Below are positions 3,430-39,192 of a stretch of DNA of 64,000 bases, piece by piece. The stretch is from Robiginitomaculum sp. (GTDB lineage: Bacteria > Pseudomonadota > Alphaproteobacteria > Caulobacterales > Maricaulaceae). The stretch covers positions 1-64,000 of the forward strand of contig JAJFFO010000018.1 of assembly GCA_021776615.1 (NCBI GenBank), given 5' to 3'. The notes beneath the pieces are model-generated. The model saw only the letters and a list, made by a program, of their open reading frames with translations. It made no database searches and had not been told where the DNA came from. Position numbers and translations under genes: made by a program. Within the stretch, counting starts at the first letter, position 1. Each line of letters begins with the position of its first letter.

Positions 3430-3577
3430 ATCCTACCCTTTATGTTTTCCAGACGACTCATAAGACGGTGGATACACCGCTACGAGCAAGGTACGGCACT
3501 TGTAATTCAAGTCAACGCACGGCGGTCACGCAAAGTGTGCTTTGCACAATAAGTTGAACAGTAGTGATCCAAGCACT

Positions 3578-4162: not shown

Positions 4163-4225
4163 GGGTGCCTCCCGCTTTCGCGAAAAAAGGCTATGCCAGA
4201 AAAAGGGAAGCGGTAGAGGAATATC

Positions 4226-17076: not shown

Positions 17077-17098
17077 GATATAAGGGATGGAGTGTTGC

Positions 17099-23923: not shown

Positions 23924-24973
23924 ATGAAAAAATTACGCCATTTCTTGCGACGCCTCTGGATGTTGTTTTTCGGCGAGCGAGAGCGCAATGACTATGTCAT
24001 GCAATATGCCAAATTCGCATGGGCATTGATTTTTGGCCGTGGCAGCTTCATAAAACAAAGCTGGGGCGAGACGCCAAACCCGCAAGAGACGCCCGATATC
24101 TGTATTTTTGTGCATTATGACAAGCACGGACTGGTCCATGATTATGTACTGCTGTATTTACAAGCCCTGCGCGATGCTGGGCGCGGTATTGTGTTTGTCA
24201 CCAATAGCCCAAAGTTTCCACAAATAGAGCGGCAAAAACTGGACGGTCTTTGCGCCAAAATACAATGGCGAAACAATAAGGGCTATGACTTCGGGGCTTA
24301 TGCAGATGGCCTTAAATCTCTTGGTAATTTTGAGAACTACCACTCCATCACCTTGTGCAATGACAGCGTTTACGGGCCATTGTCCGATTTATCGGCGGTC
24401 TATGATAAAATGGACCCCAGTGCGGCAGATATTTGGGGTATGACTGATTCCTGGGATCAGCAGCACCATTTACAAAGCTATTTTCTGGTTTTTCATAAAG
24501 CCGCCTTGGAGCATTTGGCTTTTCAAAAACGTTGGAAAAACTATATCCACGTGCCGTCAAAATCCTGGGTTATCCGCAAGCATGAAATTGGCATTACCGG
24601 CGAATTGCGCAAAGCCGGTTTGCGGGCAAAGGCGGCATTTCCCTATCGGGTTTTGCTGGGCGATTTTTTTGATCGCATGGGCGACGCATCGGTGCTCAAT
24701 GATAAGGATATATTGCCAAAACACCGTAAATTCCTGTCCCGTATTTATGAACATGCCGAGCACGGTCTCCCCTTAAATGTTACGCATTTTTTCTGGGATC
24801 GGCTGATCATAGAATTTGATTTTCCATTCATCAAAAGGGAGATTTTACAAAGCAATCCATCTGCATTACCAGGGGTTTATCGGTGGGAAAAATTCATCAA
24901 CACCCTAAGCGATTATGACACCAGCGCCATCACCCGACATTTGGAATTCACCCAGCATGGGCGGTTTATGTGA
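23924..24973 (+). CDS. Rhamnan synthesis protein F family (RgpF-like)
   Basis: This 349-residue protein matches the RgpF family (rhamnan/rhamnose-glucose polysaccharide synthesis). Diagnostic segments are ICIFVHYDKHGLVHDY, IVFVTNSPKF, NKGYDFGAYADGL, HSITLCNDSVYGPL and DIWGMTDSWDQQHHLQSYF. Members are involved in building rhamnose-containing surface glycans, but their exact chemistry is not settled. It follows the methyltransferase by six bases, and its stop overlaps the gspE start (TGATG). Transcription therefore appears continuous from polysaccharide genes into the type II secretion genes. Confidence 0.85.
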   Translation: MKKLRHFLRRLWMLFFGERERNDYVMQYAKFAWALIFGRGSFIKQSWGETPNPQETPDICIFVHYDKHGLVHDYVLLYLQALRDAGRGIVFVTNSPKFPQIERQKLDGLCAKIQWRNNKGYDFGAYADGLKSLGNFENYHSITLCNDSVYGPLSDLSAVYDKMDPSAADIWGMTDSWDQQHHLQSYFLVFHKAALEHLAFQKRWKNYIHVPSKSWVIRKHEIGITGELRKAGLRAKAAFPYRVLLGDFFDRMGDASVLNDKDILPKHRKFLSRIYEHAEHGLPLNVTHFFWDRLIIEFDFPFIKREILQSNPSALPGVYRWEKFINTLSDYDTSAITRHLEFTQHGRFM

Positions 24974-26619
24974 TGGCTGTTGATAAATATCTCGCTGCCG
25001 ACACAGACATGCACGCCTGGTTGCAAACCGCCGGACTTTCCGAAGCCGACACCGGGCGCGCTTTGCGGGCGGCGCAAGATAGCGGCGAAGCATTATCCTC
25101 AGTGGTTCGCCGCCTTGGGTTTTTGAGCGATACCGCCATTGCCCAGAGCTTGGCCATAGCCAGTGCCTTACCGTGCATTCTCGCCGAGAGTTTTGCCGCG
25201 CAAGACCCGGTTAATGGCATTGTCAGCCCGGAATTTTTGATGGCCAATAAGGCGTGCATTGCCGATGCCGATGACAGCCACGTTTTGCTGGCCATCGCCG
25301 ACCCGGCATCCGCGGATATTGTTGACTCCATTGAGTTGGCAATTGGCAAACCTGTCACCCTGGCGCTAGCCCCCTTGGCGGATATTGAGGCGGCTTTAGC
25401 GCGGTATTTTGGCGCTGCAGCCGGCCATACCAATCCTGATAACGATCACCATGGCGTCGACGATGCGGACGCCGAGCATTTGCGCGATTTGGCGAGCGAG
25501 GCTCCGGTGGTCCGTCTGGTCAATGATTTGTTCAAACAAGCTCTCGCCCACCGGGCATCGGATATTCATATAGAGCCTTATCGCGACCATTTGCGCATCC
25601 GGTTGCGCGTAGATGGAGTATTGCATGATCAGGACGCACCGCGCGCCGCCCTGACGCAATTGGTGGTGTCGCGCATCAAAATTATTGCCGGCCTCGACAT
25701 TGCCGAGCGCCGGCGGCCGCAAGACGGCCGCGCGCGCATAAGCATTGCCGGCACGCCGCTTGATTTGCGTATTGCCACCACCCCCAGTGCCCACGGCGAA
25801 AGCGTGGTTATACGGCTGTTGGAAGACCGCGACTCTGAGGTTGATTTGCATAGCCTTGGCCTTAGTGACAGGGATGAAACCCTGCTCCGCACGCGGTTGT
25901 CCGCGCCTTTCGGGCTAATCTTGGTGGTTGGCCCAACCGGCGGCGGCAAAACCACCACTTTGGCCGGGGCTATCAGCACCCTAAATACCCCGCATCAAAA
26001 AGTGATCTCCATTGAAGACCCGGTGGAATATCAAATTGATGGCGTAACCCAGATTGCCGTGCAACCGGCCATTGGCTTGACTTTCGCCAACGCCTTGCGG
26101 TCAGTTTTGCGCCAAGACCCCGATGTCATTGTTGTCGGCGAATTGCGCGATCGCGAAACCGCAGAAATTGCGGTAAATGCAGCGCTTACCGGGCATTTGG
26201 TGCTGGCCACATTGCACGCCAATACTGCCGCCGGGGCGCCAGCACGGCTCATCGACATGGGCGTCGATCCGTCACTTTTACGCTCCACATTGCGGCTGAT
26301 TTTATCGCAACGGCTGATCCGCTTGTTGTGCCAAAATTGCCGTGAAAAAGCCAAAGGTACATGGCACCATAAGGGTTGCGATCAGTGCGCGGACACGGGT
26401 TATTTGGGGCGCAAGGGATTGTTCGAATCCATTGATCTGACGCCAGCCTTATTGGAAATGATCCAACCCGATTTATCAGCATTGGAATTTGAGCGGGCGG
26501 CACGCGAAAGCGGGTGCTTGTCCTTGTCGGACGATGGCCAAGCCAAAGTGAAAGCCGGATTGACCGATGCGGATGAAATATGGCGGGTGCTGGGCGAGCG
26601 CGTGGGGAGCAAAGCGTGA
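24973..26619 (+). CDS. gspE: Type II secretion ATPase GspE
   Basis: This cytoplasmic hexameric ATPase drives pseudopilus assembly (548 residues). After an N-terminal MshEN/GspE-N domain come LVNDLFKQALAHRASDIHIEP, Walker A VGPTGGGKTTTLAG, the Asp box ISIEDPVEYQIDG, Walker B VIVVGELRDRETA and the His box LATLHANTA. A four-cysteine zinc motif (CQNC ... CDQC) near residue 455 is typical of GspE/PilB. The ATG at 24973 shares its first base with the previous stop; a GTG three bases earlier is possible. Confidence 0.95.
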   Translation: MAVDKYLAADTDMHAWLQTAGLSEADTGRALRAAQDSGEALSSVVRRLGFLSDTAIAQSLAIASALPCILAESFAAQDPVNGIVSPEFLMANKACIADADDSHVLLAIADPASADIVDSIELAIGKPVTLALAPLADIEAALARYFGAAAGHTNPDNDHHGVDDADAEHLRDLASEAPVVRLVNDLFKQALAHRASDIHIEPYRDHLRIRLRVDGVLHDQDAPRAALTQLVVSRIKIIAGLDIAERRRPQDGRARISIAGTPLDLRIATTPSAHGESVVIRLLEDRDSEVDLHSLGLSDRDETLLRTRLSAPFGLILVVGPTGGGKTTTLAGAISTLNTPHQKVISIEDPVEYQIDGVTQIAVQPAIGLTFANALRSVLRQDPDVIVVGELRDRETAEIAVNAALTGHLVLATLHANTAAGAPARLIDMGVDPSLLRSTLRLILSQRLIRLLCQNCREKAKGTWHHKGCDQCADTGYLGRKGLFESIDLTPALLEMIQPDLSALEFERAARESGCLSLSDDGQAKVKAGLTDADEIWRVLGERVGSKA

Positions 26620-27812
26620 GCGGTTTTCTCGTCAAATCAGTAGCTGCTGACGGGGCAAAGAGCGAGATTTTTGTCGAGGCCGCCGACGATTATGAAGCGG
26701 CGGCAAAGGTGCGCGCTCTTGGCCTGACCCCCCTGTCCACGCACGCTGGACAAGCAAGGCGAAAAAAACGCGCGCCGCGCGGTGCCCACAAAGCAGCGGC
26801 GCGCATTGTCCGCGAGCTTGGCGCCCTAACCGGCGCCGGCCTGACCATCGAACAAGCCTTGTCCAGTCTTGCCCGTTACGCCAGCACGCCTTTGATTGAA
26901 AATATTACCAGCGGCTTGCACGACGATGTGCGCGCCGGGACCAGTCTTGCTGATGCCTTTAGCGCCCGGCCTGAAATTTTTCCGCCGCCATTTGCACAAA
27001 TTGCCGAAGCGGGGGAAAGCGCTGGTGCCTTGCCAGCTGCCTTGAGTGATTTGGCCGATTGGCAGGAAAGCCGGGCCGCCTTTGAAAGTGAGATTAAGGG
27101 CGCGCTTCTATATCCCCTGATCTTGATGGTCCTGGCACTGGTGGCGGTGGGCGGCCTTATGGTTTTTGTGGTACCGCGTTTCGAGCAGGTATTTGACGAT
27201 TTGGGAGCGGCACCGCCTGCCTTTGCCGCCACCGTTTTTGCCATTGCGCGCGGCTTGACCAGGGCAGCGCCCTTCATCCTCCTTGCAATAATCGGCATTT
27301 CAGCCTTGTCCGGGCTTTGGCTAAGAAGGCCAACGGCAAAGCGGCAGGCTTATGCAGCGGCGCATAAACTGCCCGGTCTGGGTGCGCTAATGCGGACCAT
27401 GCTGGCGGCGCGGTTTTGCCGGGTATTGGCGGTATTATTGCAAAATGGATTATCGGCAGTGCCGGCCTTTCGTCTGGCCAGCGCCAGCCTGACCGATGCC
27501 TTTGCCAAACAGCGATTAGAGGAGGCGCTGACAGAAGTGCGGCGCGGAGCTTCTTTGCCAGCTCAAATTGCCCAAGCCGAAATATTGCCGCCCTTGGCGG
27601 TCGAGATTATTCGCATTGGCGAGCAGACCGGCGAACTTGGCAAAGCCACCGAACGACTGGCCAAACTCTATGAAGACCGGCTTGAACGCGGGGCGCGAAC
27701 GGCGTTGCGTCTGGCAGAACCTGCGCTTATCGGCTTTGTTGGTTTGATCGTCGGTGTTATCATTGTTTCCATCTTGCTTGCCTTGGTAAGCGTCAACGAT
27801 ATCGGGTTCTAA
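26616..27812 (+). CDS. gspF: Type II secretion inner-membrane platform protein GspF
   Basis: This polytopic platform protein is contacted by GspE (398 residues). It has two T2SSF domains: the first around residues 60-185 (FARELG-like IVRELGALTGAGLTIEQAL, FAQIAEAGESAGALPAAL), the second around 260-390 (LAVLLQNGLSAVPAFRLA, IIRIGEQTGELGKATERLA). Three hydrophobic segments are visible. The start is GTG at 26616, overlapping the gspE stop as GTGA; longer versions of the frame run into gspE. Confidence 0.94.
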   Translation: MSGFLVKSVAADGAKSEIFVEAADDYEAAAKVRALGLTPLSTHAGQARRKKRAPRGAHKAAARIVRELGALTGAGLTIEQALSSLARYASTPLIENITSGLHDDVRAGTSLADAFSARPEIFPPPFAQIAEAGESAGALPAALSDLADWQESRAAFESEIKGALLYPLILMVLALVAVGGLMVFVVPRFEQVFDDLGAAPPAFAATVFAIARGLTRAAPFILLAIIGISALSGLWLRRPTAKRQAYAAAHKLPGLGALMRTMLAARFCRVLAVLLQNGLSAVPAFRLASASLTDAFAKQRLEEALTEVRRGASLPAQIAQAEILPPLAVEIIRIGEQTGELGKATERLAKLYEDRLERGARTALRLAEPALIGFVGLIVGVIIVSILLALVSVNDIGF

Positions 27813-27813
27813 A

Positions 27814-28260
27814 ATGGCTGTTTCGATTGCTTACAAATCCAAAAGAATATCCGGACGCGGCGGTTACACCCTGACCGAACTTCTGGTGGTGCTGGTCATT
27901 CTGGGCCTGTTAATCGGCCTTATCGCGCCGCGGTTTTTGGGTCAAATCGGCAAAGCGCGGAGCAAAACCGCCCGGGTGCAAATTTCCAATCTGGCGACAG
28001 CATTGGAATATTATCAACTGGACACCGGCACTTATCCGGCGACGTCCATTGGTTTGTCTGGCTTGCTCAGTTCGCCGCCCAATGTGCAAAACTGGGATGG
28101 ACCGTATTTAAAAACCCGCCGGGTGCCCGATGACCCGTGGGGCAACCCGTATATTTATCAGCCCGGTGCCGATGGTATTTTTATAATCCGCACACTTGGT
28201 GCCGACAACCGGGAAGGTGGAGATGGCGAAAACACCGATATTTCCTCGGCTGACGAATAG
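27814..28260 (+). CDS. gspG: Major pseudopilin GspG
   Basis: This is the major subunit of the type II pseudopilus (148 residues). The prepilin leader ends at RGG|YTLTELLVVLVILGLL, with cleavage after glycine and glutamate at position +5 of the mature protein. The C-terminal half has the GspG signature GPYLKTRRVPDDPWGNPY, part of the calcium-binding loop, and ends in an acidic tail. It lies two bases after gspF. Confidence 0.95.
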   Translation: MAVSIAYKSKRISGRGGYTLTELLVVLVILGLLIGLIAPRFLGQIGKARSKTARVQISNLATALEYYQLDTGTYPATSIGLSGLLSSPPNVQNWDGPYLKTRRVPDDPWGNPYIYQPGADGIFIIRTLGADNREGGDGENTDISSADE

Positions 28261-28696
28261 AGCCAAAGCCGGTTATACGCTGGCCGAACTTCTGGTGGTA
28301 ATGGCAATCCTTGGCCTGATCACCGCTATTATTGCGCCGCGTTTTGCCAACAATACCGACGGGGCGCAGCTGGCCTCAAGCGCGTCCATCATCCACAACA
28401 CACTACGAAGCGCCAGAATCAGCGCTTTACGCAATGGCACCAGCACAAAAGTGTTCATTGACCCTTATGCCAAGACCATCTGGCGCGAAGGGGACAACCC
28501 CATCCCCCTTAGCCAAAATCTGGAACTTTCCGCCATTGGGGCAGAAGTAGAATCGGCAGGCGATCAGATCGGCTTTCGTTTTTTTGCCGAAGGACAAAGC
28601 ACTGGCGGCGAGATAAATTTAGCGATTGGCGAAAAAACCCAAAGCATCACCATCCTTTGGGCCAATGGAGATATCCGCTTTGCCCAACCACGATAG
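28223..28696 (+). CDS. gspH: Minor pseudopilin GspH
   Basis: This minor pseudopilin (157 residues) has leader KAG|YTLAELLVVMAILGLI. The globular part matches the GspH domain, with ASIIHNTLRSARISALRNGT and the C-terminal ILWANGDIRFAQ. It overlaps the end of gspG by 38 bases. I chose the ATG at 28223, which has AAGG five bases before it; a GTG at 28217 is an alternative. Confidence 0.88.
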   Translation: MAKTPIFPRLTNRAKAGYTLAELLVVMAILGLITAIIAPRFANNTDGAQLASSASIIHNTLRSARISALRNGTSTKVFIDPYAKTIWREGDNPIPLSQNLELSAIGAEVESAGDQIGFRFFAEGQSTGGEINLAIGEKTQSITILWANGDIRFAQPR

Positions 28697-29051
28697 CGCC
28701 AAAACAACAGTTGGCTTTACGCTGATTGAAACCGTGATCGCCACCGCCTTGGCGGCCATTGGTTTCACTTTGGTATTTCAAGGGTTGAGCGGTGCCGTAC
28801 GATTGACCAATGCCAGCCACCAGACCGAGAAAGCCGTATTGGTAGCCAAATCCATTATCGCGCAAAGCATGGTCACACCCCCCGAAATTGGTCAAAGCCA
28901 AGGCATTGCCGATGGGGTTGCGTGGACCTTAAGCACCAGCCTGACCATGCAAAATGATGATGGCATGAAGCTTGTCCGCTATGACGTGTTGGCCCAAGGC
29001 AGCTTTGGTCGTCAGGTGCATTTAACCAGCGAGCGGGTGACCATCAAATGA
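28665..29051 (+). CDS. gspI: Minor pseudopilin GspI
   Basis: This minor pseudopilin (about 128 residues) has leader TTVG|FTLIETVIATALAAIGFTL and the GspI-like body SHQTEKAVLVAKSIIAQ followed by a VAWTLSTSL strand. The start is uncertain. ATG at 28665 is used here, but TTG at 28680 has GGAG nine bases upstream and gives a leader of more usual length. The end overlaps gspJ by four bases. Confidence 0.82.
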   Translation: MEISALPNHDSAKTTVGFTLIETVIATALAAIGFTLVFQGLSGAVRLTNASHQTEKAVLVAKSIIAQSMVTPPEIGQSQGIADGVAWTLSTSLTMQNDDGMKLVRYDVLAQGSFGRQVHLTSERVTIK

Positions 29052-29704
29052 GTGCCTGCCCCAAACCAGAAAGCCGCTCTGGCCTGACCTTGGCAGAAAT
29101 GATGGTGGCGCTGATTATTAGCAGCATCGCCTTGGCAATAACGGCCCAAGCCGCCGCAACATTGCACCAATGGACTACACGTCTGGACAAAGCCCATGAC
29201 ACCAATGCCGAGGCCGTCGTGCTCTATCACTTTGTCGAACGGGTGTTGTCCGAGGCCTTGCCATTATCGCGAAAAAACGAAGACGGCATGGCCGCGTTGT
29301 TTGAAGGTGACGCCAATGCCATTCGCTTTGTCCGTGCCGAGCCCGGTTATCCATCTCGCGCCGGTCTTTATCAATATTATCTGTTCGCACGAGCCACTGC
29401 CGACGGCCAATGGGATTTGGTTTTGCACCGGGAGTTATTTGGCGAGGCGGCGCAGTTTGGCAGTTTGGAAAACCCGACCGAATTGGTGGTTTATACCGGT
29501 GATGCCGCCCCGGCGTTTTCGTATTTCGGCGCGAACGGATGGCAGGGGGCATGGTCGCAAGGCGACACATCACCACAATTAGTTGGGTTTGGCATTGCCC
29601 CTTGGCCAGTGCTTAATATCAATCTTGTGCCAAGCCCGCCTGCTCCGGCAGAAACCGGCGACATCAAAGAAGACGACAACAATACCGTGGAGGCAAGCCG
29701 GTGA
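29048..29704 (+). CDS. gspJ: Minor pseudopilin GspJ
   Basis: This minor pseudopilin (218 residues) has leader RSG|LTLAEMMVALIISSIALAI and a longer globular domain with AIRFVRAEPGYPSRAGLYQ and WDLVLHRELFG, as in GspJ. It is joined to gspI and gspK by ATGA and GTGA overlaps. The C-terminus is acidic and probably disordered. Confidence 0.88.
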   Translation: MSACPKPESRSGLTLAEMMVALIISSIALAITAQAAATLHQWTTRLDKAHDTNAEAVVLYHFVERVLSEALPLSRKNEDGMAALFEGDANAIRFVRAEPGYPSRAGLYQYYLFARATADGQWDLVLHRELFGEAAQFGSLENPTELVVYTGDAAPAFSYFGANGWQGAWSQGDTSPQLVGFGIAPWPVLNINLVPSPPAPAETGDIKEDDNNTVEASR

Positions 29705-30633
29705 GGCGTGAGCGCGGCTTCATTCTATTGGCAGTGATTGCGGTGCTGACCCTTGCCGCCGCCGCCTTGGCGATGGTCAGTCTGGCGGCACGCCTTGGCG
29801 CAAAAGAAGTCAGCATTAGCGTTGATTTGGCACAGGCAAAAACCGCGCGCGAAGCTGTGCTGGCGCGCGCCGTATTTGGCCTAAGTCAGGACGCCATCTA
29901 TGCCGACGGACGCGCCTTTACTCACGGTATTAATGGGATTGAGCTGGAATACCGGGTTTTGGACGCACGCGGCTTGATCGACCTTAATCGCGCCCCGGAA
30001 GCATTATTGGCTGATTTTCTTGCCCAGTTTTTGCCAAACACGACACAGGCGGCAAGTTTGGCAGCAGCCATTGCCGATTGGCGCGATGAGGACGATGAGG
30101 AACGTCAGGATGGTGCTGAAAAGCGCCGCTATGAGAATGCCGATTTACCCGGCCCGGCCAATCAAGCCTTTGTGCATGTAAGCGAAGCGCGCAGGGTGAT
30201 CGGCATGGATGCCGCCCTGTTCGCTGCAATTGCGCCTTATCTGGTCATTACTGGCAATGCAGATGATGGCGATACTCTTCCAGACCCAGTTTACGCACCC
30301 GCGCCAATACTTGAAATTTTGGATATCAGCCCCGTGCGCCGCGAAGAGATATGGAGCGCCCGCCGGGATGGCGCACCACCAAGCACCGCGCAGAAACAGA
30401 CCGTGGGTGGCGAGACGGCAGAGGACGACGACAGTCACACAGCAAACTCCATTGCACGGCGCTTTTTACTGACGGTCGAGACCCGAAACCTCGGCGGCAC
30501 ACGCACTGCAGAACACTTTACCTTCGCAACTGGACCAGCACTCGGTGAATATGCCATTCTCTCCCGGCGCGCCGATACCGTAGGCATGGCGGCGCGCTTA
30601 TACGGCATGGACCCCAAGAATGACGATTTTTGA
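29701..30633 (+). CDS. gspK: Tip pseudopilin GspK
   Basis: This is the large minor pseudopilin that caps the pseudopilus with GspI and GspJ (310 residues). The leader is RERG|FILLAVIAVLTLAAAA and, as usual for GspK, it lacks the glutamate at +5. The helical insert domain includes LDARGLIDLNRAPEALL and IADWRDEDDEERQDGAE. The start is a GTG that overlaps the gspJ stop. The end overlaps gspL by 14 bases. Confidence 0.92.
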   Translation: MRRERGFILLAVIAVLTLAAAALAMVSLAARLGAKEVSISVDLAQAKTAREAVLARAVFGLSQDAIYADGRAFTHGINGIELEYRVLDARGLIDLNRAPEALLADFLAQFLPNTTQAASLAAAIADWRDEDDEERQDGAEKRRYENADLPGPANQAFVHVSEARRVIGMDAALFAAIAPYLVITGNADDGDTLPDPVYAPAPILEILDISPVRREEIWSARRDGAPPSTAQKQTVGGETAEDDDSHTANSIARRFLLTVETRNLGGTRTAEHFTFATGPALGEYAILSRRADTVGMAARLYGMDPKNDDF

Positions 30634-31603
30634 ACAAATACAGGATTTATGGGTTCGCTGGGCGCAGGCCTTTGATGAAGGCATTGCGCAATTGCCGGGT
30701 ATTGGCCAATGGGTGCAGCCCAAATGGATAATCCTGATCGCCGATCGCGATGGCAGTTTTTCCCGCGTCGATGGCCCCGAGGCAGGAGGCGTTTTAGCAC
30801 CAGACCACATACGAAAGCTGGGACGCCAAAATCACATTTGTTTGCGCCTTGGTAAAGGCCTTGGCCAACGCCGCGATATTTTATTGCCGCAGGCGGCAAG
30901 TCATGACCCGGCATCGGCAATTCGCTTGTCACTGGAGCAATATTTTCCGTTCCCGGCCAAGGAAACCGCCTTTGCCATTCATGGCGCCGCCCAACCCAGC
31001 GGACCACACCATAGCCAGTTTCGCGTCAGTTTTGCGCGGCATTCTGTCATCACGCAATGCAAGGAGCGTTTGCAGGCATTGGGTGTTAATCCGAAAGCCA
31101 TTGACGCCCTTGGCGAGCACGCTGATGAGTCGGTCAATGCCGATTTGCAACGCGGCACCAATATGGCAGATGGCAAAAGCGCCAGTTTCGTCCTGGCAGC
31201 CCTTTGCACCCTTCTTTTAGTTTTTGGCGGACTGGTTAGCCTGTGGTCAAACCTGTCTTTGGCACCGGCAATGACCGACGCAAGAGCCGCTAATCTCCCC
31301 ACCATCACCGCTGATCAGGCATTGCGGCAAAAGCAGGCCAAGACCACCGCACCCTCGGTTTTGCGGCTATGGCAAGCAGCGACCCAATCGCTCCCTGACA
31401 ATGCCTATGCGGAATATTTATTGTATGAAAAAGGCCGGTTACGGATAGCCGGCAAGGCCAAGGATGCCGCCAGCCTTGTCAGCGCCATTGAAGCGCAATT
31501 TTTGTTTGAGGGCACCACCTTTGCCTCCGCCTCGCTCAAGGAGGACAATGGCGAAGAGAGTTTCGATCTGGTCACCAATGTCCTTGAAGCGGCCCAACCA
31601 TGA
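30620..31603 (+). CDS. gspL: Type II secretion assembly protein GspL
   Basis: This bitopic inner-membrane protein links GspE to the periplasm (327 residues). The cytoplasmic actin-like region includes IRLSLEQYFPFPAKETAFAIH. A single membrane helix lies around residues 193-212 (SFVLAALCTLLLVFGGLVSL). A periplasmic ferredoxin-like domain follows (LRIAGKAKDAASLVSAIEA). The sequence is divergent, but position between gspK and gspM and this topology make the call secure. Confidence 0.85.
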   Translation: MTIFEQIQDLWVRWAQAFDEGIAQLPGIGQWVQPKWIILIADRDGSFSRVDGPEAGGVLAPDHIRKLGRQNHICLRLGKGLGQRRDILLPQAASHDPASAIRLSLEQYFPFPAKETAFAIHGAAQPSGPHHSQFRVSFARHSVITQCKERLQALGVNPKAIDALGEHADESVNADLQRGTNMADGKSASFVLAALCTLLLVFGGLVSLWSNLSLAPAMTDARAANLPTITADQALRQKQAKTTAPSVLRLWQAATQSLPDNAYAEYLLYEKGRLRIAGKAKDAASLVSAIEAQFLFEGTTFASASLKEDNGEESFDLVTNVLEAAQP

Positions 31604-32091
31604 GCGCCCGTCAGCGAAACTTTGCAGCACTGCTTGGTGGTGTTTTGGCCTTGGGTCTAAGTATGTTTTATGCCGCCAATGCCAGCCTGCACGCGGCGCA
31701 TATGCGGGCCGAAATCAACCGCGCTGAATTATCCAGCGACGCCCGGACACCCGATCAGGCGCTGGCACAACATTATCTGGTCCACGCACCCTCTCATGGC
31801 GCAGCCGGGGCGGCATTGCTGACACGATTGCGCCAATCTGCGCGCAATGCACAAATATCGTTAGAACGCGCAGAACCACGCGCGGCGGATGAAATTGACC
31901 CGCAAATGGTAAAAATCTCGGCGCAAATTAGCGGCAACACCCAAAACATCGCGCAATTTTTACATGAGCTGGAAGCCAGTCCACCGGCCCTTATTGTCGA
32001 GAGGGCGCGGCTGAACACGCAGGACAATGGCGACATTGCCGTCGATATTTTGATCCTCGCACGGGCGCGCTATGTCGGTGCTAATCCATGA
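31600..32091 (+). CDS. gspM: Type II secretion protein GspM
   Basis: This small bitopic protein partners GspL (163 residues). One N-terminal membrane helix (LLGGVLALGLSMFYAANA) is followed by a periplasmic ferredoxin-like fold, with AALLTRLRQSARNAQISLERAEP and IAQFLHELEASPPALIVERARL. The latter is the GspMb-type sequence. It overlaps gspL and the following gene by four bases each. Confidence 0.85.
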   Translation: MSARQRNFAALLGGVLALGLSMFYAANASLHAAHMRAEINRAELSSDARTPDQALAQHYLVHAPSHGAAGAALLTRLRQSARNAQISLERAEPRAADEIDPQMVKISAQISGNTQNIAQFLHELEASPPALIVERARLNTQDNGDIAVDILILARARYVGANP

Positions 32092-32594
32092 ACCGGCGCA
32101 TGATTTGGCAGGTCGGCGCGGCGGTCCTTTTGGCGGTGCTCTTTGGCGTGGACCGCTTTGTGCTAAATGCTGCCACCGATGAAAAACTGGCGGCGCCAAT
32201 ATCGCGACCAAAACCGATAAGCACAGAAACGTTAGGCCCCGCGGCCGGTGCCACCGGCACCATGGCTTTCCTTGCCCCTTTAAGTGATTTTAGTGAGGTA
32301 TGGACCCGACCAATCTTTACGCCATCGCGGCAAAGTGCCCCAAATGTCGCCCGGCCATTCCCGCCAATTCAAACCAATATCGCCACCGATCAACCGCCAC
32401 CATTCAGGATTAAGGGCGTTGCCCTTGGCCCCGATGGCGGCGCGGTATTGATAGCCTTAGATAGCGGCACCACCGGGCGCTATTATCTCAATGACACCAT
32501 TGAAGACTGGACAATCGAGAAGATTGAAACCGACAATATCACCGTAAGCCGCGGGATAAGCCGCTGGCTATTGCCGGTCAACACGCTCCAATAA
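32088..32594 (+). CDS. Short GspC/GspN-like type II secretion protein
   Basis: This 168-residue protein has one N-terminal membrane helix (residues ~6-26) and a periplasmic domain. The domain has SEVWTRPIFTPSRQ, then FRIKGVALGPDGGAVLIAL and a strand-rich end (GRYYLNDTIEDWTIEKIE). This resembles the HR domain of GspC, which binds the secretin N0 domain. No PDZ or coiled-coil domain follows, unlike classical GspC. Such genes are variously annotated GspN or GspC. No other gspC is present, so this is the best candidate for the link between inner-membrane platform and GspD. It is the last gene of the operon. Confidence 0.7.
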   Translation: MNRRMIWQVGAAVLLAVLFGVDRFVLNAATDEKLAAPISRPKPISTETLGPAAGATGTMAFLAPLSDFSEVWTRPIFTPSRQSAPNVARPFPPIQTNIATDQPPPFRIKGVALGPDGGAVLIALDSGTTGRYYLNDTIEDWTIEKIETDNITVSRGISRWLLPVNTLQ

Positions 32595-32610: not shown

Positions 32611-35600
32611 TTAAGGCGCATCGGTCCGCACCGCGAAATTGGTGGCACCGCGCACCACACCGCCGACATCTTTAAAGCGCAGAAACACCCGGTTTTGCCC
32701 TGGAGAGAAGACAATATCGCCGCTGGCATTGGCAAACACCGCAAAGGTCCGTGTCTCGCCATTTACTGAAGCGATATCCACAGTGGCCGCGGGCGGCGCC
32801 AGACATGCACCACTTACCGGATTGGTTTCACAAACAAACAGGGCCAATGGCAAACCGGAACCGCCATCATCTGCGCTTAAAGTCAAATCAGCGTCAGCAC
32901 CAAGAGCCGAGGTGGCAATTGCAGCTGCGGCAGCACCGGAAGGCCCCGGAATGGAAATCGTTCCATCACCGGTCGCGGTCAAACCAATCGTCAACATATC
33001 TGCCGGGTTTGACTGTGCAGCAGAGAGAATGAAGCTGTTTACACCAACGGTAACATTTGATGATGTGCCCTCATTGCAACTGGCCTGAATGCCAAGTTCT
33101 TGCTGGTTAAGCACCGCAGAAGGGGTGATAGCGAAGACGAAGTTTTGCACGCCATTGCTGCCGGCAATGGTAACCGGCGTGTCGGGTGAGCCGATAGGCG
33201 CATTGCCCGCATCGGTGGTCTGATAGGTAAAGCCACCTTGGAAACTTCCCGGTTCCAACCCGATGAAACAATTAGTGCCCTCAACACTGCCAGCATTGAT
33301 TACGGTCATGAAGGCGGTTGCCTGGGCGCCGACTTTCACCGAGCGCGCATAGGGCAAGACCGCCGTAACCAAATTAGGCAAAGGCGTCGCCGACGAGGTC
33401 CAGCCGAGCTTTACCAGCCCATTGGCACCTGAGACACCATCAATGGCGATATGATGATTGGTGCCGGTTACAGCGTTGAAGGTGACAAATTTCGCGTTCT
33501 GCGTCTGGGCCGGATTAGCCACCGACAATGCTCCGGCGATACCCGAACTTGGCGCTTCGGCACCAATAGGGGAAAGTGCCGCCAGCGATGAGCCAGTATA
33601 GACGCTAAGCACATTGGCAAAGTCCGACCCGTCGGTATTGAAGGTGAAGCTTCCATCTGAAGGTGCGGTCCAGTCAAACCAAATGGATTGCGCCGCGGGC
33701 GCACCGCCATGGGCTGGCTCACCGGCCTCGGCGGTGGCATTGACATTATTGCCATTGGCACTACCCGAGTTACCGGCAATCATGGTTGGCGTTGCAAAAT
33801 TATCATTCGCCGCCGCACCGGCAATGCTCACACTCAGCACCACATCGCCCGAAGCCCCGTTAAAGCCATCAACCGCAAAGAAATAATTGGTCCCAGCGAC
33901 AGTATCAAACGAGATTAGCGAGGTGAGAATGCCATTTGGATTATCCTCGTCATCATTATTACCTTTGGCGGTTAGCGCATTCAGCGCGGTGCCGGTATAC
34001 GCCCCCAAAACCGTATCAAAGCTACTGCCCGCCGTAGACACATTGATCATCGTCGAAAGCGGCGCTACCCATTTATACCAAATCGAGGCACCGCCGGCAT
34101 TGGCACCACCAATATGGTTGGGCTCATCTGGCTCTTTATCGGCATTTGCGCTCGACCCGGTAATGCTTGGCTGTATACCGGTAAGCGGCAATGCATCGGC
34201 AAAGTTATTATTGGCCAGAAAACTGGCCGAAGCGCCGACAAAGCGGGTGGCACTTTCCGCGCCAACGGCAAAGGTGATAGCCCCATCATCTGAACCAGCG
34301 GTGCCACCAAGCAGATTTTGCGCATCAATGGAAACGATAACCGTTTCCGACGCGCCGCCAGCCAACGTACCGCCGGGTTTATCCAAAACGATAAAGGGCT
34401 TATCGACACTGGCAGTCCAGTCCAAATTGCCAGCGCCATTATTGGTCAATGTGTAGGCCATGGTGCCGAAAGAGGCGGACACGCCCGCCGTGCCTGACGC
34501 GCCAAACCCATCAAACGGGGCGATGGCAAGATCGCCCGCTTCCGAACCTCCATTCGCCAGAAAATCACTGGCTAAATCCACCCGAATACGGGGCTTGGAA
34601 AGTTGGTTTTTGGTGTCCACAACCGGTTTTCCCGTAGCTTTAAGCGCATCTTCAATCTGCTGCACGGTCGCGGTCGGGTGCGCAGACCGCAAAAGCGCAA
34701 ATGCACCGGCGACGTGCGGGGTGGCCATGGAGGTGCCGCTTAAGGTCGCGCCGTAATTAATGCCCGCAACCTGTGGATAGGCTGCCAGAATGCTGACACC
34801 AGGGGCCAACACATCAACTAAAGAAGAGGAGTTGGAAAAGCCGGCAACCACATCGGATTTACTGGTCGCCCCCACCGTTATCGCCGTTGAAATGCACCCG
34901 GGATTACTAACTGCATTGGTAAAACTTTCATTGCCAGCAGCGATAACCGTGGCGACACCCGTCGTACGCAATTGGTCAATCAAACTTTTCAAAGCGTCGT
35001 TATCGCAAGCCGTTTCGCTTTCACCACCACCAAGGCTCATATTGGCCGAAGCAATTTTCAATGCAATTGTATTATCAAGGACAAAATCCAGCCCCGCCAA
35101 TTGATCTGAATCAAAAGATTGCACGCACGGCGCATCATCTTCATTGGGAGGCTCATCATCAGAGCAATCACTCGCTTTGTTAAACTTGGTAAACACCTGA
35201 ATAGCCACCAGATTAGCCCCCCGGGCAACACCGGCCACCGTGCGCGGCGTTGACGATAAGGTAAACGCACTGCCCATAGCCGTCGACGCCACATGGGTAC
35301 CATGATCACAGCCATCAATGCCTTCCGTAATGTCTGGTGTGGCCGGGTCGTCTACCGGACAATTAGTACCTGCGGGAAGACCTAGCTGCTCAACGCTCCC
35401 GTTTGGGCATAAGGATTCCGTTTCATCGTCAATGCTTTCCGCCGAAAAACAAGCAGACCCAACGACCTTACCACTCATCATTACATGATCATGGGATGAT
35501 CCGGTATCCAACACCGCGACAGCATAGTCAGCACCATCAGAGCCAGCATTCCAAACTGTGGGCGCCCCGATAAGCACCGTAGATTCATCCAAATTTGGTC

Positions 35601-36024
35601 GTGACAATTGATCCGTATAAATTTTAATTACCGCCGGGTCAGCCGCTAATTTTTCCATCTCTGAACGGGTTAAGCGCATAGCCATGGCTGGCACATTGTT
35701 AAGTATTCGAACCACAGAGGGATTATCAACAGCCTCCAGGGTTTTCTGCTTGTTATAGTTGAAAGCTTTACCCCCAAAGGTTCGCTCCAGAAGGCTTTCT
35801 CTACCCGCAGCGATCAACGTGCGCCTTGCCGTGGCGGCAACACCTGCTTTGCCTTTTGGGGTTTCTGCAGCCGGAATCGCATAATCGACAATGACCCGCA
35901 CCCGCTCACCAGCATCGGCTTTCGCCTGAGTCTTACCCGCAAGCATAATTTTTGACGATTGCGCCCAGGCTGCGGAGGCGCAAATGGTTACTATAGAAAC
36001 CAGCGTGAGAAAGCGGATAATCAT
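32611..36024 (-). CDS. Secreted S8 (subtilisin-like) serine protease with two repeats and a shared C-terminal domain
   Basis: This is an exported protease of 1137 residues. A signal peptide ends at ASAAWA|QSS. A propeptide-like region with an I9-type look covers ~30-140. The catalytic domain (~150-480) has the triad Asp173 (VLDTGSS), His241 (DHGTHVAS) and Ser432 (LSGTSMATPHVAG), with Asn365 in the oxyanion motif AAGN. Residues ~590-880 hold two related beta-rich repeats (NNFADALPLTG... and NDNFATPTMIAG...), similar to prepeptidase C-terminal domains. Residues 881-1137 form a domain shared with the adjacent metalloprotease. GGAG lies seven bases before the ATG. Export by the neighbouring type II system is inferred. 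Confidence 0.9.
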   Translation of the reverse strand: MIIRFLTLVSIVTICASAAWAQSSKIMLAGKTQAKADAGERVRVIVDYAIPAAETPKGKAGVAATARRTLIAAGRESLLERTFGGKAFNYNKQKTLEAVDNPSVVRILNNVPAMAMRLTRSEMEKLAADPAVIKIYTDQLSRPNLDESTVLIGAPTVWNAGSDGADYAVAVLDTGSSHDHVMMSGKVVGSACFSAESIDDETESLCPNGSVEQLGLPAGTNCPVDDPATPDITEGIDGCDHGTHVASTAMGSAFTLSSTPRTVAGVARGANLVAIQVFTKFNKASDCSDDEPPNEDDAPCVQSFDSDQLAGLDFVLDNTIALKIASANMSLGGGESETACDNDALKSLIDQLRTTGVATVIAAGNESFTNAVSNPGCISTAITVGATSKSDVVAGFSNSSSLVDVLAPGVSILAAYPQVAGINYGATLSGTSMATPHVAGAFALLRSAHPTATVQQIEDALKATGKPVVDTKNQLSKPRIRVDLASDFLANGGSEAGDLAIAPFDGFGASGTAGVSASFGTMAYTLTNNGAGNLDWTASVDKPFIVLDKPGGTLAGGASETVIVSIDAQNLLGGTAGSDDGAITFAVGAESATRFVGASASFLANNNFADALPLTGIQPSITGSSANADKEPDEPNHIGGANAGGASIWYKWVAPLSTMINVSTAGSSFDTVLGAYTGTALNALTAKGNNDDEDNPNGILTSLISFDTVAGTNYFFAVDGFNGASGDVVLSVSIAGAAANDNFATPTMIAGNSGSANGNNVNATAEAGEPAHGGAPAAQSIWFDWTAPSDGSFTFNTDGSDFANVLSVYTGSSLAALSPIGAEAPSSGIAGALSVANPAQTQNAKFVTFNAVTGTNHHIAIDGVSGANGLVKLGWTSSATPLPNLVTAVLPYARSVKVGAQATAFMTVINAGSVEGTNCFIGLEPGSFQGGFTYQTTDAGNAPIGSPDTPVTIAGSNGVQNFVFAITPSAVLNQQELGIQASCNEGTSSNVTVGVNSFILSAAQSNPADMLTIGLTATGDGTISIPGPSGAAAAAIATSALGADADLTLSADDGGSGLPLALFVCETNPVSGACLAPPAATVDIASVNGETRTFAVFANASGDIVFSPGQNRVFLRFKDVGGVVRGATNFAVRTDAP
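32614..33384 (-). other. Shared C-terminal domain, copy 1 (in the S8 protease)
   Basis: Residues 881-1137 of the S8 protease align along their full length with residues 444-706 of the metalloprotease at 36296. Shared landmarks, in order, are VLPxxRSxK, ATAFxTVIN, FxYQTT, G(S/T)PDTP, QNFxFxITP, VCETxPxxGAC and RGATxxAVRT near the very end. Four cysteines occupy equivalent places (domain positions 39, 103, 185, 194). I do not recognise the domain as a named family. Confidence 0.85.
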
Positions 36025-36295
36025 TACAGAACTCCATATAATTTAATATACTGACGGCAAAATGATCGGTGAAATTGGCACACACCATCTATGCCGTCCA
36101 CTGATTCCAATAAGTCAGGAATAGTTTTTGCAATTTCTATTAATAAATATACCCGCGGGCCAGAGGAAGTTTTCGATTTTTTGTTGAAAAACTAGGCAAT
36201 TGACGCAGAATCTTGTATGGTTCCCCTTGGTCGCGGCGTAACGATAACCGCCGCATGGGACAAATGCTCATACATGAGCGCCATGGGGTATTGTT

Positions 36296-38416
36296 ATGCA
36301 CCGCTATATTTTTGTGATTATCAGCCTGATATTATTGGCAAATCAACCTGCTAATGCCGGGCAACTTTGGCAGATACACGGCCAAAAAGCCGACGCTAAT
36401 AGCGTCCAAAGTGCTCCCAATAGCGCAAAAACCTTTGAAAAATTTTCCATCAGCCTCGATCAAAATAGCATATTTTCCATGAATGAGGGCGCGCAAGCGG
36501 AAATGTCGTTGCCGGGCGGGCTTCAGGTTTTTGCCCAGTTGGAGAGCATTAAGAGCCATGCACTGGGCGGAGATTCCTGGTTGGGCTGGGCCGGTGAAGG
36601 CGACAGCCGCGGCCGTATCGTCATGACCAGTGTCAATGGTTTCACCTTTGCCGCCATCACCCACAATAACAAACTCTATCTTATCGAACCGGCAAAAACT
36701 GGCGGCCATATTTTGTATGAAGCGTCCGCCGAAGGCATGATAGAACCCAGTTTTGGCGAGGACGGCGTTATACCGCCTGTGGCCTTAACCAGCGCCATTG
36801 CCGCCAAGCCACCCAGCCCAGCCAAGCCCACGGTTTTAGGAGCGCTTGGCACAGTGGATGTTGGCATTTTCTATCATGCGAGCATGCGCGATCGCTGGGG
36901 GCTTGGACTGATGGCGCGCTTGCAATTCCTGATTCAAAACTATGACACCGCTTTGCTCGATAGCCTCACCGAGGTCCGCGCCAACCTGGTGCATGTCAGC
37001 GAAATCACCGGCACCTTGGCGAAATCAAATGGTGACACACTGGACGACTTGAAGGATGGTGCATCAAATGCAGATGGTGATTTTTCCGGTGTCGCCGCCA
37101 TCAGAGCGGCCAAAGGTATTGATATCGTTACCTATATGCGGCGCTTCAAGGCTTCCACCCATTCATCCTGTGGCACCGGATTTGTACTCGGCACCGGTTC
37201 CTCGGTCATTGGCGTCGGTTCTGCGGCGTTCGGCGTCAATACGGTGAGTGATAGTTTTGATATTGATGATGAAGGTCCGGACGGTGCGCCATTACCCGGC
37301 CCCTTTAGTCTGTGTTCTATCTATACCTTGGCCCATGAAATCGGCCATAATATGGGCACCCAGCATAATCTGGCTACTACCCCCGATGATGGTGTGTTCA
37401 GCTATTCCCATGGCCACCGGGTCGAGGGCGATTTTCGCACCATTATGGGCACTGATGGTAGCGGCGGGACAACCCGCCTTGGCTTCTACTCCAACCCCTC
37501 ACTGGCAAAATGCACCGACCCCGGCGGTGCGGGTGCAACCACAGCCTGCGGCGTAGTTGATGTCGCCGACGCTGCCCGCTCCATGCGCGAACAAGGCAAG
37601 AATGTTGGCACTTTTAACGCCCCTGCCCCGCGCGTTGTATCTTCGGTCCTGCCCATCAGCCGCTCGATCAAGTCTGACGCCACCGCCACCGCCTTCGCCA
37701 CTGTGATCAACCCGGCAGGTGGCGGTACGGCCACGGACTGTATGCTTGATCTTCCCGGCGCTACGGCTGGTCAATTCAGCTACCAGACCACAAGTGCGGT
37801 CAACGCCCTGACCGGCACACCGGATACGCCAATTGATATTGCCGCTGGGGCGGCCCAAAATTTCATCTTCTCGATAACCCCGGGCGCCGTATTTGGCGGT
37901 GTGGAATCACATGTTAGCGATGACCCATTCACCAGTTCTGAATTGGCCGTTGATTTTTCTTGCACCAACCGTCAATCCGCAGAGTCTATTAGCGGGTTAA
38001 ACACACTTAACTTTGTTGCTGAAACCACCGACGTTATGGACGTAATCGCGTTGTCGGCAACCATTGGCAGCACCGGCATTGTCGAAACGGCTGGTGGCAC
38101 CGGCGTGTTCAGTGTCGCGGTCAGCAATATCGGCATAGCGGGCACGGTGACTGCATCTGGCGAAACCAGTACTGCTGCCGTACCCGCCACGATTACGGTA
38201 TGTGAAACCGTTCCCGCAACCGGGGCCTGCAAGGCACCAGCTGCTCCCACTGTCACGAAAACCCTTGCCAAAGATGAAACCGCAACTTTTGGGTTTTTTG
38301 TCACAGAAACAGCGACGATTGCCAATGATTTGGCAGCAAACCGCATTCTCGCCCTCTTTGAAGAAGGCGGTACAACCCGCGGGGCAACTTCGGTGGCGGT
38401 GCGTACCGGGCCTTAA
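36296..38416 (+). CDS. Secreted M12-type (reprolysin-like) zinc metalloprotease with the shared C-terminal domain
   Basis: This is an exported metalloprotease of 706 residues. The signal peptide ends near QPANA|GQ. Residues ~30-180 look like a propeptide. The catalytic domain (~185-430) begins VDVGIFYHASMRDRWG and has the metzincin zinc motif HEIGHNMGTQH at 347-357. A Met-turn sequence RTIMG lies at 382-385 (Met384), as in reprolysin-like families. Residues 444-706 are homologous to the C-terminus of the divergently transcribed S8 protease. The two genes share a 271-base intergenic region with no clear promoter pair. Secretion by the adjacent type II system is likely but inferred. Confidence 0.88.
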   Translation: MHRYIFVIISLILLANQPANAGQLWQIHGQKADANSVQSAPNSAKTFEKFSISLDQNSIFSMNEGAQAEMSLPGGLQVFAQLESIKSHALGGDSWLGWAGEGDSRGRIVMTSVNGFTFAAITHNNKLYLIEPAKTGGHILYEASAEGMIEPSFGEDGVIPPVALTSAIAAKPPSPAKPTVLGALGTVDVGIFYHASMRDRWGLGLMARLQFLIQNYDTALLDSLTEVRANLVHVSEITGTLAKSNGDTLDDLKDGASNADGDFSGVAAIRAAKGIDIVTYMRRFKASTHSSCGTGFVLGTGSSVIGVGSAAFGVNTVSDSFDIDDEGPDGAPLPGPFSLCSIYTLAHEIGHNMGTQHNLATTPDDGVFSYSHGHRVEGDFRTIMGTDGSGGTTRLGFYSNPSLAKCTDPGGAGATTACGVVDVADAARSMREQGKNVGTFNAPAPRVVSSVLPISRSIKSDATATAFATVINPAGGGTATDCMLDLPGATAGQFSYQTTSAVNALTGTPDTPIDIAAGAAQNFIFSITPGAVFGGVESHVSDDPFTSSELAVDFSCTNRQSAESISGLNTLNFVAETTDVMDVIALSATIGSTGIVETAGGTGVFSVAVSNIGIAGTVTASGETSTAAVPATITVCETVPATGACKAPAAPTVTKTLAKDETATFGFFVTETATIANDLAANRILALFEEGGTTRGATSVAVRTGP
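37625..38413 (+). other. Shared C-terminal domain, copy 2 (in the metalloprotease)
   Basis: Residues 444-706 of the metalloprotease match the end of the S8 protease. Cysteines at domain positions 39, 113, 193 and 202 correspond one to one with those of copy 1. Both copies end within a few residues of AVRT. There is no C-terminal membrane helix or basic tail, so this is not a PEP-CTERM or GlyGly-CTERM signal. Confidence 0.85.
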
Positions 38417-38496
38417 GATAAGGCTCATTAAATGCCGTTCGTTGCCCAGTTGGCGCGAACGGTATAGACTGCGCGCAACAGGTGATGGAGAATAAA

Positions 38497-39192
38497 ATGC
38501 GCAGTTTGGCTTCTGTATTTGGTGGTTTACTGGTCGGCTCGCTTTTAATCAGCACCGGTGCACAGGCTGAAGTGACGGTGAAAGCCATAGATACCGGCTG
38601 GAAAGTTGAGGCGAAGGAAGAACCGCTCACCGGCATTCTTCGCGCCATCGCCAAGCACGCGGCCATCAAAATCAGCGGTACCGCGAAACTGGTTGAAGAT
38701 CCAGCCATGAGCGGCGTCTATGAGGGCAGTATCGAAACCATATTGCCAAAACTATTGCGCCAGTCAGATTATGTGTTTCAGACAACCAAAGACGCAAATG
38801 GCGTCAGCCGGGTTAGCAAGCTGGTATTGCTGTCTGGGGTGAAGGGCCGCGCGCCCAGTGCACGGGCGATAAATGCGGCGCGTAAATTGCCCGATAATCG
38901 CCCCAGTGCCATGCCGCTTACCGCGCAGGAACAACAGCAAGGATCACGGGTCACCGCATTATTAACCCAGCAAGCACGGGTAAGCGCCGGGATTGAGAGC
39001 GATGCTGGGCAGGCGAATGCTGACGACCAAAGCGACACCCCAAATTCGTCTGGCATCACCCGCAATAGCGATGGCAGTTTTTCGATAAGCCCGGAAGCAC
39101 AGGCGCGTTTGGCACAAGCCAGCGCGCAAGCCAATCAGGATTTGCAAGCCTTGGTTTCGTCCATCCGGCGCAATGAATCGGATGGAAATTAG
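38497..39192 (+). CDS. Exported protein with a secretin N0/STN-like domain, function unknown
   Basis: This is a 231-residue protein with a signal peptide (cleavage near GAQA|EVT). Residues ~30-95 (WKVEAKEEPLTGILRAIAKHA ... YEGSIETILPKLL) have the pattern of the STN/N0 domain found at the start of secretins and TonB receptors. The rest is polar, rich in Gln, Ser and Asp, and probably disordered. The start at 38497 is favoured by GGAG six bases upstream. It follows the metalloprotease by 80 bases on the same strand. An STN-like domain next to a type II system suggests contact with GspD or its partners, but no function is established. Confidence 0.6.
   Translation: MRSLASVFGGLLVGSLLISTGAQAEVTVKAIDTGWKVEAKEEPLTGILRAIAKHAAIKISGTAKLVEDPAMSGVYEGSIETILPKLLRQSDYVFQTTKDANGVSRVSKLVLLSGVKGRAPSARAINAARKLPDNRPSAMPLTAQEQQQGSRVTALLTQQARVSAGIESDAGQANADDQSDTPNSSGITRNSDGSFSISPEAQARLAQASAQANQDLQALVSSIRRNESDGN

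Follow-up and report, generated by a model that had tools for sequence, protein, structure and literature searches.

It is an open question how type II secretion systems choose their folded substrates, and another how the exported products are kept at the cell surface; both bear on a locus of Robiginitomaculum sp. in which two secreted proteases, encoded beside a type II secretion operon, end in the same domain. The locus lies in a stretch of 64,000 nucleotides of contig JAJFFO010000018.1 (assembly GCA_021776615.1), analysed as a whole, hereafter termed the window, to which coordinates refer unless another locus is named; the genome assembly (G000) comprises 2.16 Mb at 70.7% completeness. A secreted S8 (subtilase) protease of 1137 amino acids is encoded on the reverse strand (32611..36024; Peptidase_S8, E 2.5e-31) and, divergently, a secreted M12B/Mep72-like metzincin of 706 amino acids on the forward strand (36296..38416; Reprolysin_4, E 1.1e-7; NCBIfam Mep72). 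The initial annotation of this DNA had described their last 260 or so residues as a common domain and proposed a sorting, anchoring or propeptide role. The observation proved right and larger than stated, the interpretation half right. The module is an undescribed folded unit of about 260 residues, apparently composed of two immunoglobulin (Ig)-like units, and it is found on many unrelated exported enzymes. With a probability of about 0.4, it acts as a single-copy docking module that tethers these enzymes to surface or matrix polysaccharide.

The module shared by the two proteases

The module occupies the C-terminal 259 residues of the S8 protease (879-1137; 32614..33390, reverse strand) and the C-terminal 264 residues of the metzincin (443-706; 37622..38413, forward strand), so that both copies run to the end of the protein, as had been claimed. 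Their homology is clear, with 41% identity in a MAFFT alignment and one strong segment in BLASTP of the whole proteins (151 bits, E 8e-42; with a spurious upstream run-on), the other segments listed having E values of 5.3 or more. All landmarks previously reported (VLPxxRSxK, ATAFxTVIN, FxYQTT, PDTP, QNFxFxITP, VCETxPxxGAC, RGATxxAVRT) were recovered in the same order, together with four equivalent cysteines. The catalytic domains belong to different families (Peptidase_S8 versus Reprolysin_4/Mep72). The NCBIfam Mep72 model (NF052434) matches residues 186-442 of the metzincin (E 1.4e-26), that is, its catalytic part only, and covers positions 1-233 of the 573 in the profile with 93.3 bits against a cut-off of 645.

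The module is unnamed in the libraries searched, and the initial annotation had not recognised it as a named family either: no Pfam or NCBIfam model exceeded its cut-off over the window copies (DUF11, E 0.11), and identity with a known domain of either database was rejected on this ground. Among 53 aligned members scanned with Pfam, DUF11 was the most frequent match (6 members, best E 0.00078), and similarity to ASH in 5 and CARDB in 2 was likewise weak; these three families belong to the extracellular Ig-like fold class, from which the module differs in staying below their cut-offs in the window copies and in being single-copy. A search of PDB sequences with the module profile gave six matches up to E 1, the best at 0.084 and none meaningful, and no paper describing the module was among those listed by the literature searches, which took in few subscription papers. 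Five positions (R14, C194, T196, F226 and R241) are invariant in the 53 rows. Residues C40 and C114 (numbering of the metzincin module) occur together in 52 rows and are jointly missing from one, a Rokubacteria copy (L021:5453-6226) that keeps the second cysteine pair; C194 is present in all 53 rows and C203 in 52, the remaining row having an X. This is the pattern that two disulfides would predict, and the four cysteines probably form them.

AlphaFold2 predicted the 264-residue module from the 53-row alignment as nearly all beta (predicted local distance difference test, pLDDT, 91.8; predicted template modelling score, pTM, 0.87), and the strand pattern is most likely that of two consecutive Ig-like beta-sandwiches. 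Foldseek ranked RbmA of the Vibrio cholerae biofilm matrix first among PDB structures (E 4e-7, template modelling score normalised to the query, TMq, 0.32), followed, among the best 50 of 1909 rows, by ciliary, antibody and integrin chains, with generic Ig, Fab and integrin folds. The predicted structure and its Ig-like matches support a tandem Ig/FnIII fold for the module; since the TM score is low, the top rank does not prove kinship with RbmA.

Carriers, position and distribution

A scan of genome contigs located the module at 31 loci, whose lineages include Robiginitomaculum, Maricaulis, Hyphobacterium, Burkholderiales, Pseudomonadales, Rhodospirillales, Gammaproteobacteria, Rokubacteria and Methylomirabilota metagenome-assembled genomes. 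The surroundings of the copies were read and yielded 130 complete proteins with a full module from 18 genomes, after removal of 4 duplicates, 10 proteins cut by the end of a stretch and 16 with a partial module; for G104-G106 part of the matches was taken in. Maricaulales, to which both Robiginitomaculum and Hyphobacterium belong, contributed 88 of these carriers, Pseudomonadales 26, Rhodospirillales 7, Burkholderiales 4, the genome G102 and Rokubacteria 2 each and Methylomirabilota 1. Every carrier has exactly one module (130/130). It is C-terminal, at most 20 residues from the end, in 75 proteins, starts 17-45 residues after the chosen start and thus right behind the signal peptide in 40, and is internal in 15; at a mature end it therefore stands in 115 of the 130. 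Under a strict rule of our own, 114 of the 130 carriers begin with a predicted signal peptide, against 106 of 371 other open reading frames (ORFs) of at least 250 amino acids at the same loci, and the carriers thereby show the Sec/Tat signal peptide expected of type II substrates. A laxer first rule was discarded because 286 of the 371 controls passed it.

The carriers fall into 50 partner clusters. Pfam scans took in 38 carriers (8 + 30) in addition to the window pair, and the partner families are S8, M12B, M10, M4, M23 and M64 peptidases, sulfatase, BD-FAE esterase, CCP_MauG di-haem peroxidase and cyclophilin peptidyl-prolyl isomerase (PPIase), as well as Vgb lyase and PD40 propellers, VWA, PKD, CAP, HbpS-like and DUF5666; no match at E 0.001 was obtained for 12 of the 30 carriers of the second set, and several of the first 8 had none or sub-threshold ones. 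Counting the M4/M10/M12/M64 zinc peptidases as one, the partners span at least 10 unrelated families. The pattern is many-to-one: each protein has one copy, a genome has many such proteins and the partners are unrelated exported enzymes, although some carrier genomes show only 1-3 matches. A FastTree phylogeny of the 130 modules clusters by lineage (13 changes versus a shuffled mean of 39.4), and module position switched on it at least 18 times, a count made without a shuffled comparison.

The prediction of an always C-terminal module did not hold. Internal positions, which the initial annotation had named as counter-evidence to its own proposal, did turn up, whereas membership of a known generic adhesive family, named alongside, did not. 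Among the roles proposed, anchoring or targeting agrees with the single copy and the mature-end position; with 40 copies behind the signal peptide and 15 internal, the module is no C-terminal sorting signal and hardly a propeptide. A strict sorting signal of the CTERM kind, a short C-terminal stretch with a hydrophobic helix and a basic tail, was rejected, as 55 of the 130 copies are not C-terminal and the 264-residue model is all beta. The GlyGly-CTERM/rhombosortase system is comparable in that one tag marks many exported proteins, its carriers generally having type II systems as well (PMC3237569), but CTERM systems use short C-terminal tripartite signals and a dedicated membrane protease, whereas the module is a folded unit of 260 residues that can stand at either end.

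A removable propeptide or intramolecular chaperone, which would keep the enzyme inactive or aid its folding and then be cut off, has its precedents, since C-terminal propeptides exist in secreted proteases. The module's presence on non-proteases (sulfatase, PPIase, di-haem peroxidase and propeller proteins) and its place at the start of the mature protein in 40 of the 130 carriers make this role very unlikely, even though the protease domain of Pseudomonas aeruginosa Mep72 is separated from its C-terminal domains during export (PMC4334185).

Among 99 relatives searched (own genome included) 20 carry the module, namely 17 of the 18 genomes of the window's genus, all three of a second genus in the family (g7, which includes G023) and none of the remaining 78. 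Even samples searched with the 53-row profile gave 2 of 384 other genomes of the class and none of 397 other genomes across the phylum; the samples overlap, and scoring was confined to the six top first-look candidates of each genome, so that weak copies may be missed. Carriers have from 1 to 35 module matches per genome, fragments included, with 12-35 in several, just 1-3 in some and three copies in the window genome; G434 and G106 share identical coordinates and were counted as one genome. The low counts in the samples set against up to 35 matches in a genome describe a rare and scattered module that is often expanded where it occurs. Hyphobacterium is a marine carrier genus with an isolate, Hyphobacterium indicum 2ED5. 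Spread on plasmids was rejected, as no plasmid record gave a tblastn match to the two module copies tested; phages were not part of this search.

Several further observations concern individual carriers. The largest expansion seen, with 35 matches, is in the Pseudomonadales genome g3_MAG_00001 (G105; L025, L033, L150-L169), whose carriers include M4, S8, sulfatase, PPIase, PKD and CAP proteins. In six large carriers (L065, L068, L071, L105, L128 and L130; frames of about 1100-1950 amino acids) a tail of about 110 residues, homologous among them, comes after the module. Homologous parts also follow the module in L027, L085, L100 and L110, identified by Pfam as CCP_MauG di-haem peroxidase in L085; this odd exported fusion has a long N-terminal part in L027 and L100 and none in L085 and L110. 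That such carriers share the metzincin prodomain found no support in L100. Between the carrier genes of G102, ORFs at L177:13134-14195 and 3461-4720 read like transposon TnpB and may be a vehicle for spread; in a Pfam tally of 138 neighbour ORFs from distant lineages Cas12f1-like_TNB has two matches, not assigned to particular ORFs. The 3.6 kb contig of L008, binned as Lysobacterales (G111), carries a module 74% identical to the window's and is probably misbinned Robiginitomaculum DNA. Module fragments in L098 (G039:C1:1287500-1296500) form two opposite-strand groups, some frames having stops, and resemble decayed carrier genes.

Proposed docking on polysaccharide and the glycan-type neighbours

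The docking reading supposes that a carrier is made with a Sec signal peptide, that its module folds in the periplasm, the four cysteines probably forming two disulfides, and that it crosses the outer membrane, in Maricaulales most likely via the adjacent type II system. The module would then bind a particular polysaccharide of the surface or matrix and hold the enzyme there, and docking would keep it near the producing cells. Homology, single copy, terminal position, signal-peptide-like start, predicted fold class, partner diversity, patchy expansion and synteny were computed; disulfides, type II export, the glycan ligand and retention as the purpose are what we infer from them. Ordinary Ig-like repeats come in tandem, and the one copy per carrier, mostly at a mature end, is unlike them and argues for docking, as do the excess of signal peptides over the controls and the breadth of partners combined with repeated changes of position and clustering by lineage.

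Two known proteins suggest the ligand. RbmA, a stand-alone matrix protein unlike the module and absent from the profile's PDB sequence matches at E 1, shares the two consecutive FnIII/Ig-like sandwiches and is the closest PDB match in fold. Its FnIII-2 domain binds Vibrio polysaccharide (PMC5605196). Mep72 carries carbohydrate-binding domains in tandem, leaves the cell by type II secretion and binds BamI, the product of the gene next to its own; alginate slows its autolysis (PMC4334185). The window resembles this pair in its metzincin with predicted C-terminal tandem domains, its type II system and its adjacent candidate partner gene, and differs in that the NCBIfam Mep72 model matches only the catalytic part of its metzincin. 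Polysaccharide binding by RbmA and the carbohydrate-binding domains of Mep72 together point to glycan docking. A further analogue is the type IX C-terminal domain of Bacteroidetes, a beta-sandwich at the C-terminus of its carriers. It too is a tag on many secreted proteins, tethered to the outer membrane by a glycolipid (PMC7468200); it serves a different machine, and the likeness is one of description.

Glycan-type genes adjoining carriers also argue for docking. The window encodes, on the forward strand, a polysaccharide-exporter-like ABC-2 permease (20100..20921; ABC2_membrane), which we take to be Wzm-like, and an ATP-binding cassette (ABC) ATPase (20830..21639), presumably Wzt-like, which was assigned by sequence and whose true start is probably inside the listed ORF. 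They are followed, within the type II cluster, by an S-adenosylmethionine-dependent methyltransferase with a C-terminal extension (21602..23917; Methyltransf_23, E 8.9e-20) and an RgpF-like (rhamnan synthesis) protein (23924..24973; RgpF, E 1.3e-31), both also placed by synteny. Wzm/Wzt-like exporters stand beside carriers in the window, in L017 (Burkholderiales) and in L165 (Pseudomonadales); Wzm had no match in the controls, and the best control match of Wzt (E 2.1e-18) was another ABC ATPase. A 17.9 kb stretch of G106 (L172) combines four ORFs with module matches, one a fragment and one a metzincin, with two RgpF-like genes (E 1.5e-106 and 1.0e-79), a methyltransferase homologue (E 8.3e-75) and a homologue of the small protein encoded behind the window's metzincin. 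Neither the RgpF nor the methyltransferase profile had a match in the controls (571 kb). When 1138 ORFs from the surroundings of carriers were clustered by BLAST without preselection, 16 families proved to be shared by at least two lineages; these include Wzm and Wzt, RgpF, two methyltransferases (that of the window and a second one) and, between G102 and Rokubacteria, the small N0-like protein. In a Pfam tally of neighbours (138 of 159 ORFs, distant lineages) the families listed include RmlD (3), Epimerase (3), GDP_Man_Dehyd (2), GT2 (2) and ABC2 (2), besides Response_reg (5) and other unrelated families; for the control ORFs (119 of 413) glycan-type families were not among the best 25 of 173 families listed. 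The enrichment of glycan-type genes near carriers is suggestive, not strong.

Several points weigh against docking. The ligand-binding role of the module is inferred by analogy, and the RbmA match, at a TM of 0.32 with generic Ig folds close behind, indicates a fold class rather than a function. Processing of Mep72 parts the protease from the carbohydrate-binding part (PMC4334185), an arrangement that would not keep the enzyme in place. Glycan genes lie near carriers in some distant lineages only and in small counts; methyltransferase families are equally common near carriers and in controls; Wzm/Wzt and RgpF/methyltransferase represent different pathways; and one of the 22 G105 stretches searched (L165) has any of five profiled neighbour families. 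Of the genomes compared, that of the window alone has the Wzm/Wzt pair within the cluster; in G017 a weaker match to the pair is located behind the small protein. Finally, the synteny in Maricaulales is perhaps that of one inherited cluster and hence a single event.

Another explanation, which we consider unlikely, is that of a generic accessory module for the extracellular space, whose Ig-like pair would act as spacer or stabiliser of secreted enzymes or stick weakly to many surfaces and would have spread by gene duplication with no dedicated partner. The weak DUF11, ASH and CARDB similarities, the generic Ig, Fab and integrin fold matches, the variable position and the carriers of Pseudomonadales, Burkholderiales, Gammaproteobacteria and Methylomirabilota, near which no N0-like homologue was found, would all suit it. 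Such a module should hardly be without a single tandem copy in 130 proteins, nor nearly absent from sampled genomes while reaching 12-35 matches in several carriers, and the five invariant residues and the linkage to an N0-like gene in four lineages likewise speak for something more specific.

The type II cluster and its N0/STN-like neighbour

The forward-strand type II genes of the window begin with the secretin GspD (17087..19297; Secretin, E 1.1e-49, GspD N0) and a prepilin peptidase (PilD/GspO; 19294..20085; Peptidase_A24). After the Wzm/Wzt-like, methyltransferase and RgpF genes they continue at 24970..32594 with GspE (24970-26619), GspF (26580-27812), GspG (27862-28251), GspH (28196-28696), GspJ (29048-29704), GspK (29701-30633), GspL (30620-31603), GspM (31600-32091) and GspC/N (32088-32594). 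GspG was identified by TIGR01710, GspL by a PilN match and GspK by its homologues; the remaining genes carry presumptive names, given from their order in the operon and characteristic features. The S8 gene stops 16 bases from the end of the last type II gene, and beyond the metzincin follows a gene for a signal-peptide protein of 236 amino acids (38482..39192, forward strand), a candidate partner with an N0/STN-like core (residues 31-117 approximately).

The order GspD, peptidase, methyltransferase, RgpF, GspE to GspC and carrier protease(s) is complete in G017, G039, G023, G107 and the Maricaulis genome G104, with the small protein behind the metzincin in all five complete loci (L076, L087, L111, L241 and L240). 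Partial stretches (L118, L012, L013, L077 and L242) are consistent with it, and L099 shows the S8 protease, the metzincin and the small protein only. The earlier statement that the module enzymes lie next to a type II operon therefore extends to three Maricaulales genera, in which carrier proteases adjoin one such operon.

The small protein had no Pfam match at E 0.01. AlphaFold2 gave a mean pLDDT of 71.3 and a pTM of 0.41, with a beta-beta-alpha-beta-beta-alpha-beta-beta core (block pLDDT 83-93) followed by low-confidence stretches and a C-terminal helix. Foldseek matches were weak, none under E 0.001, and many were STN/secretin N0 structures: PilQ, GspD, XcpQ, LspD and BfpB, together with a putative anti-sigma factor and VirB7, whose structures we take to contain an STN/N0-type domain. 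A profile built from Maricaulales alone found four homologues in 315 kb around distant carriers, in L172 (G106, E 2.4e-13), L179 (Rokubacteria G103, E 1.3e-7) and twice in L177 (G102, E 2.2e-5 and 1.2e-4), and none at E 0.01 in the 571 kb of controls, which come from five of the same genomes. The gene is thus near carriers in four lineages, Maricaulales and three distant ones. By length alone, four of four near carriers has a probability of 0.016, or 0.045 when three lineages are counted. Two homologues share the strand of a carrier ORF, at distances of 61 and 41 bases; for the two of G102 the distances are 756 and 1487 bases. The stretches searched around carriers of Pseudomonadales, Burkholderiales, Gammaproteobacteria and Methylomirabilota had no homologue, nor had the type II loci read outside Maricaulales, and the type II loci of distant carriers likewise had no methyltransferase or RgpF match.

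Taken with the synteny, this neighbour raises the possibility of export recognition, in which the secretion machine or the N0/STN-like protein as adaptor would read the Ig-like unit and export any enzyme fused to it at either end. We regard it as somewhat unlikely. It fits the Maricaulales synteny well, and the small protein next to carriers, including the two homologues within 61 bases, suits it. A window-type GspK (E at most 9e-27, next best 5.9e-15) occurs in 19 of the 99 relatives, all carriers; the sole exception among the 20 carriers is G006 (77% complete), and G009 (same genus, 81% complete) lacks the module, this GspK and any GspG match, with one GspD match under the cut-off. The window GspK protein itself served as marker because the GspK model PF03934 is unsuitable, failing to detect the window-type GspK, picking out a different locus on contig C22 and matching Gram-positive controls. 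Resting on two genera, the co-occurrence may reflect one or two events. GspD or GspG exceeded the curated cut-off in 17 of 19 carrier genomes tested (16 of 18 without the probably misbinned G111), with neither in G103 and the incomplete G006; as proof of a link this was rejected, the base rate being too high, since 218 of the 398 genomes sampled have GspG above the cut-off and, among these, the window's own alone has the module.

Outside Maricaulales export recognition fits less well. The 17.9 kb of L172 group carriers with an N0-like gene and show no type II gene on the stretch read, a weak GspG-type pilin match (21 bits, under the cut-off) lying elsewhere on that contig, and Rokubacteria G103 carries the module without a marker above cut-off. 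Eight distant carriers (G099, G100, G101, G102, G105, G106, G110 and G355) have GspD or GspG on other contigs than the module, a weak point given how short the contigs are. The claim that the module occurs only with this type II system is not supported: among the relatives a window-type GspK accompanies it in all carriers apart from G006, but in distant carriers the type II loci differ in gene order and G103 has neither marker above cut-off.

Docking and export recognition could also be parts of one many-to-one export-and-display system of Proteobacteria, with the module as position-independent label, the N0/STN-like protein as periplasmic secretin adaptor and the RgpF-like protein and methyltransferase making the attachment glycan, a type II counterpart of the type IX domain and its glycolipid; so composite a system we think quite unlikely. 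A natural module that occurs singly, at either end of enzymes from at least 10 families, with a conserved small neighbour, offers a matched substrate set and a portable tag for both questions raised at the outset.

Minor features of the type II genes were also seen. Outside the window (G000:C22:134010-136705 and 320780-321187) the genome has two further GspG genes above cut-off and a canonical GspK on C22; 16 of 17 genus mates searched had no match to the canonical GspK model. Upstream of GspD, positions 13535-16900 of the window encode a carboxypeptidase-regulatory/TonB-receptor-like outer membrane barrel, and G017 (L075) and G039 (L086) also have a homologous stretch ahead of GspD, there on the opposite strand.

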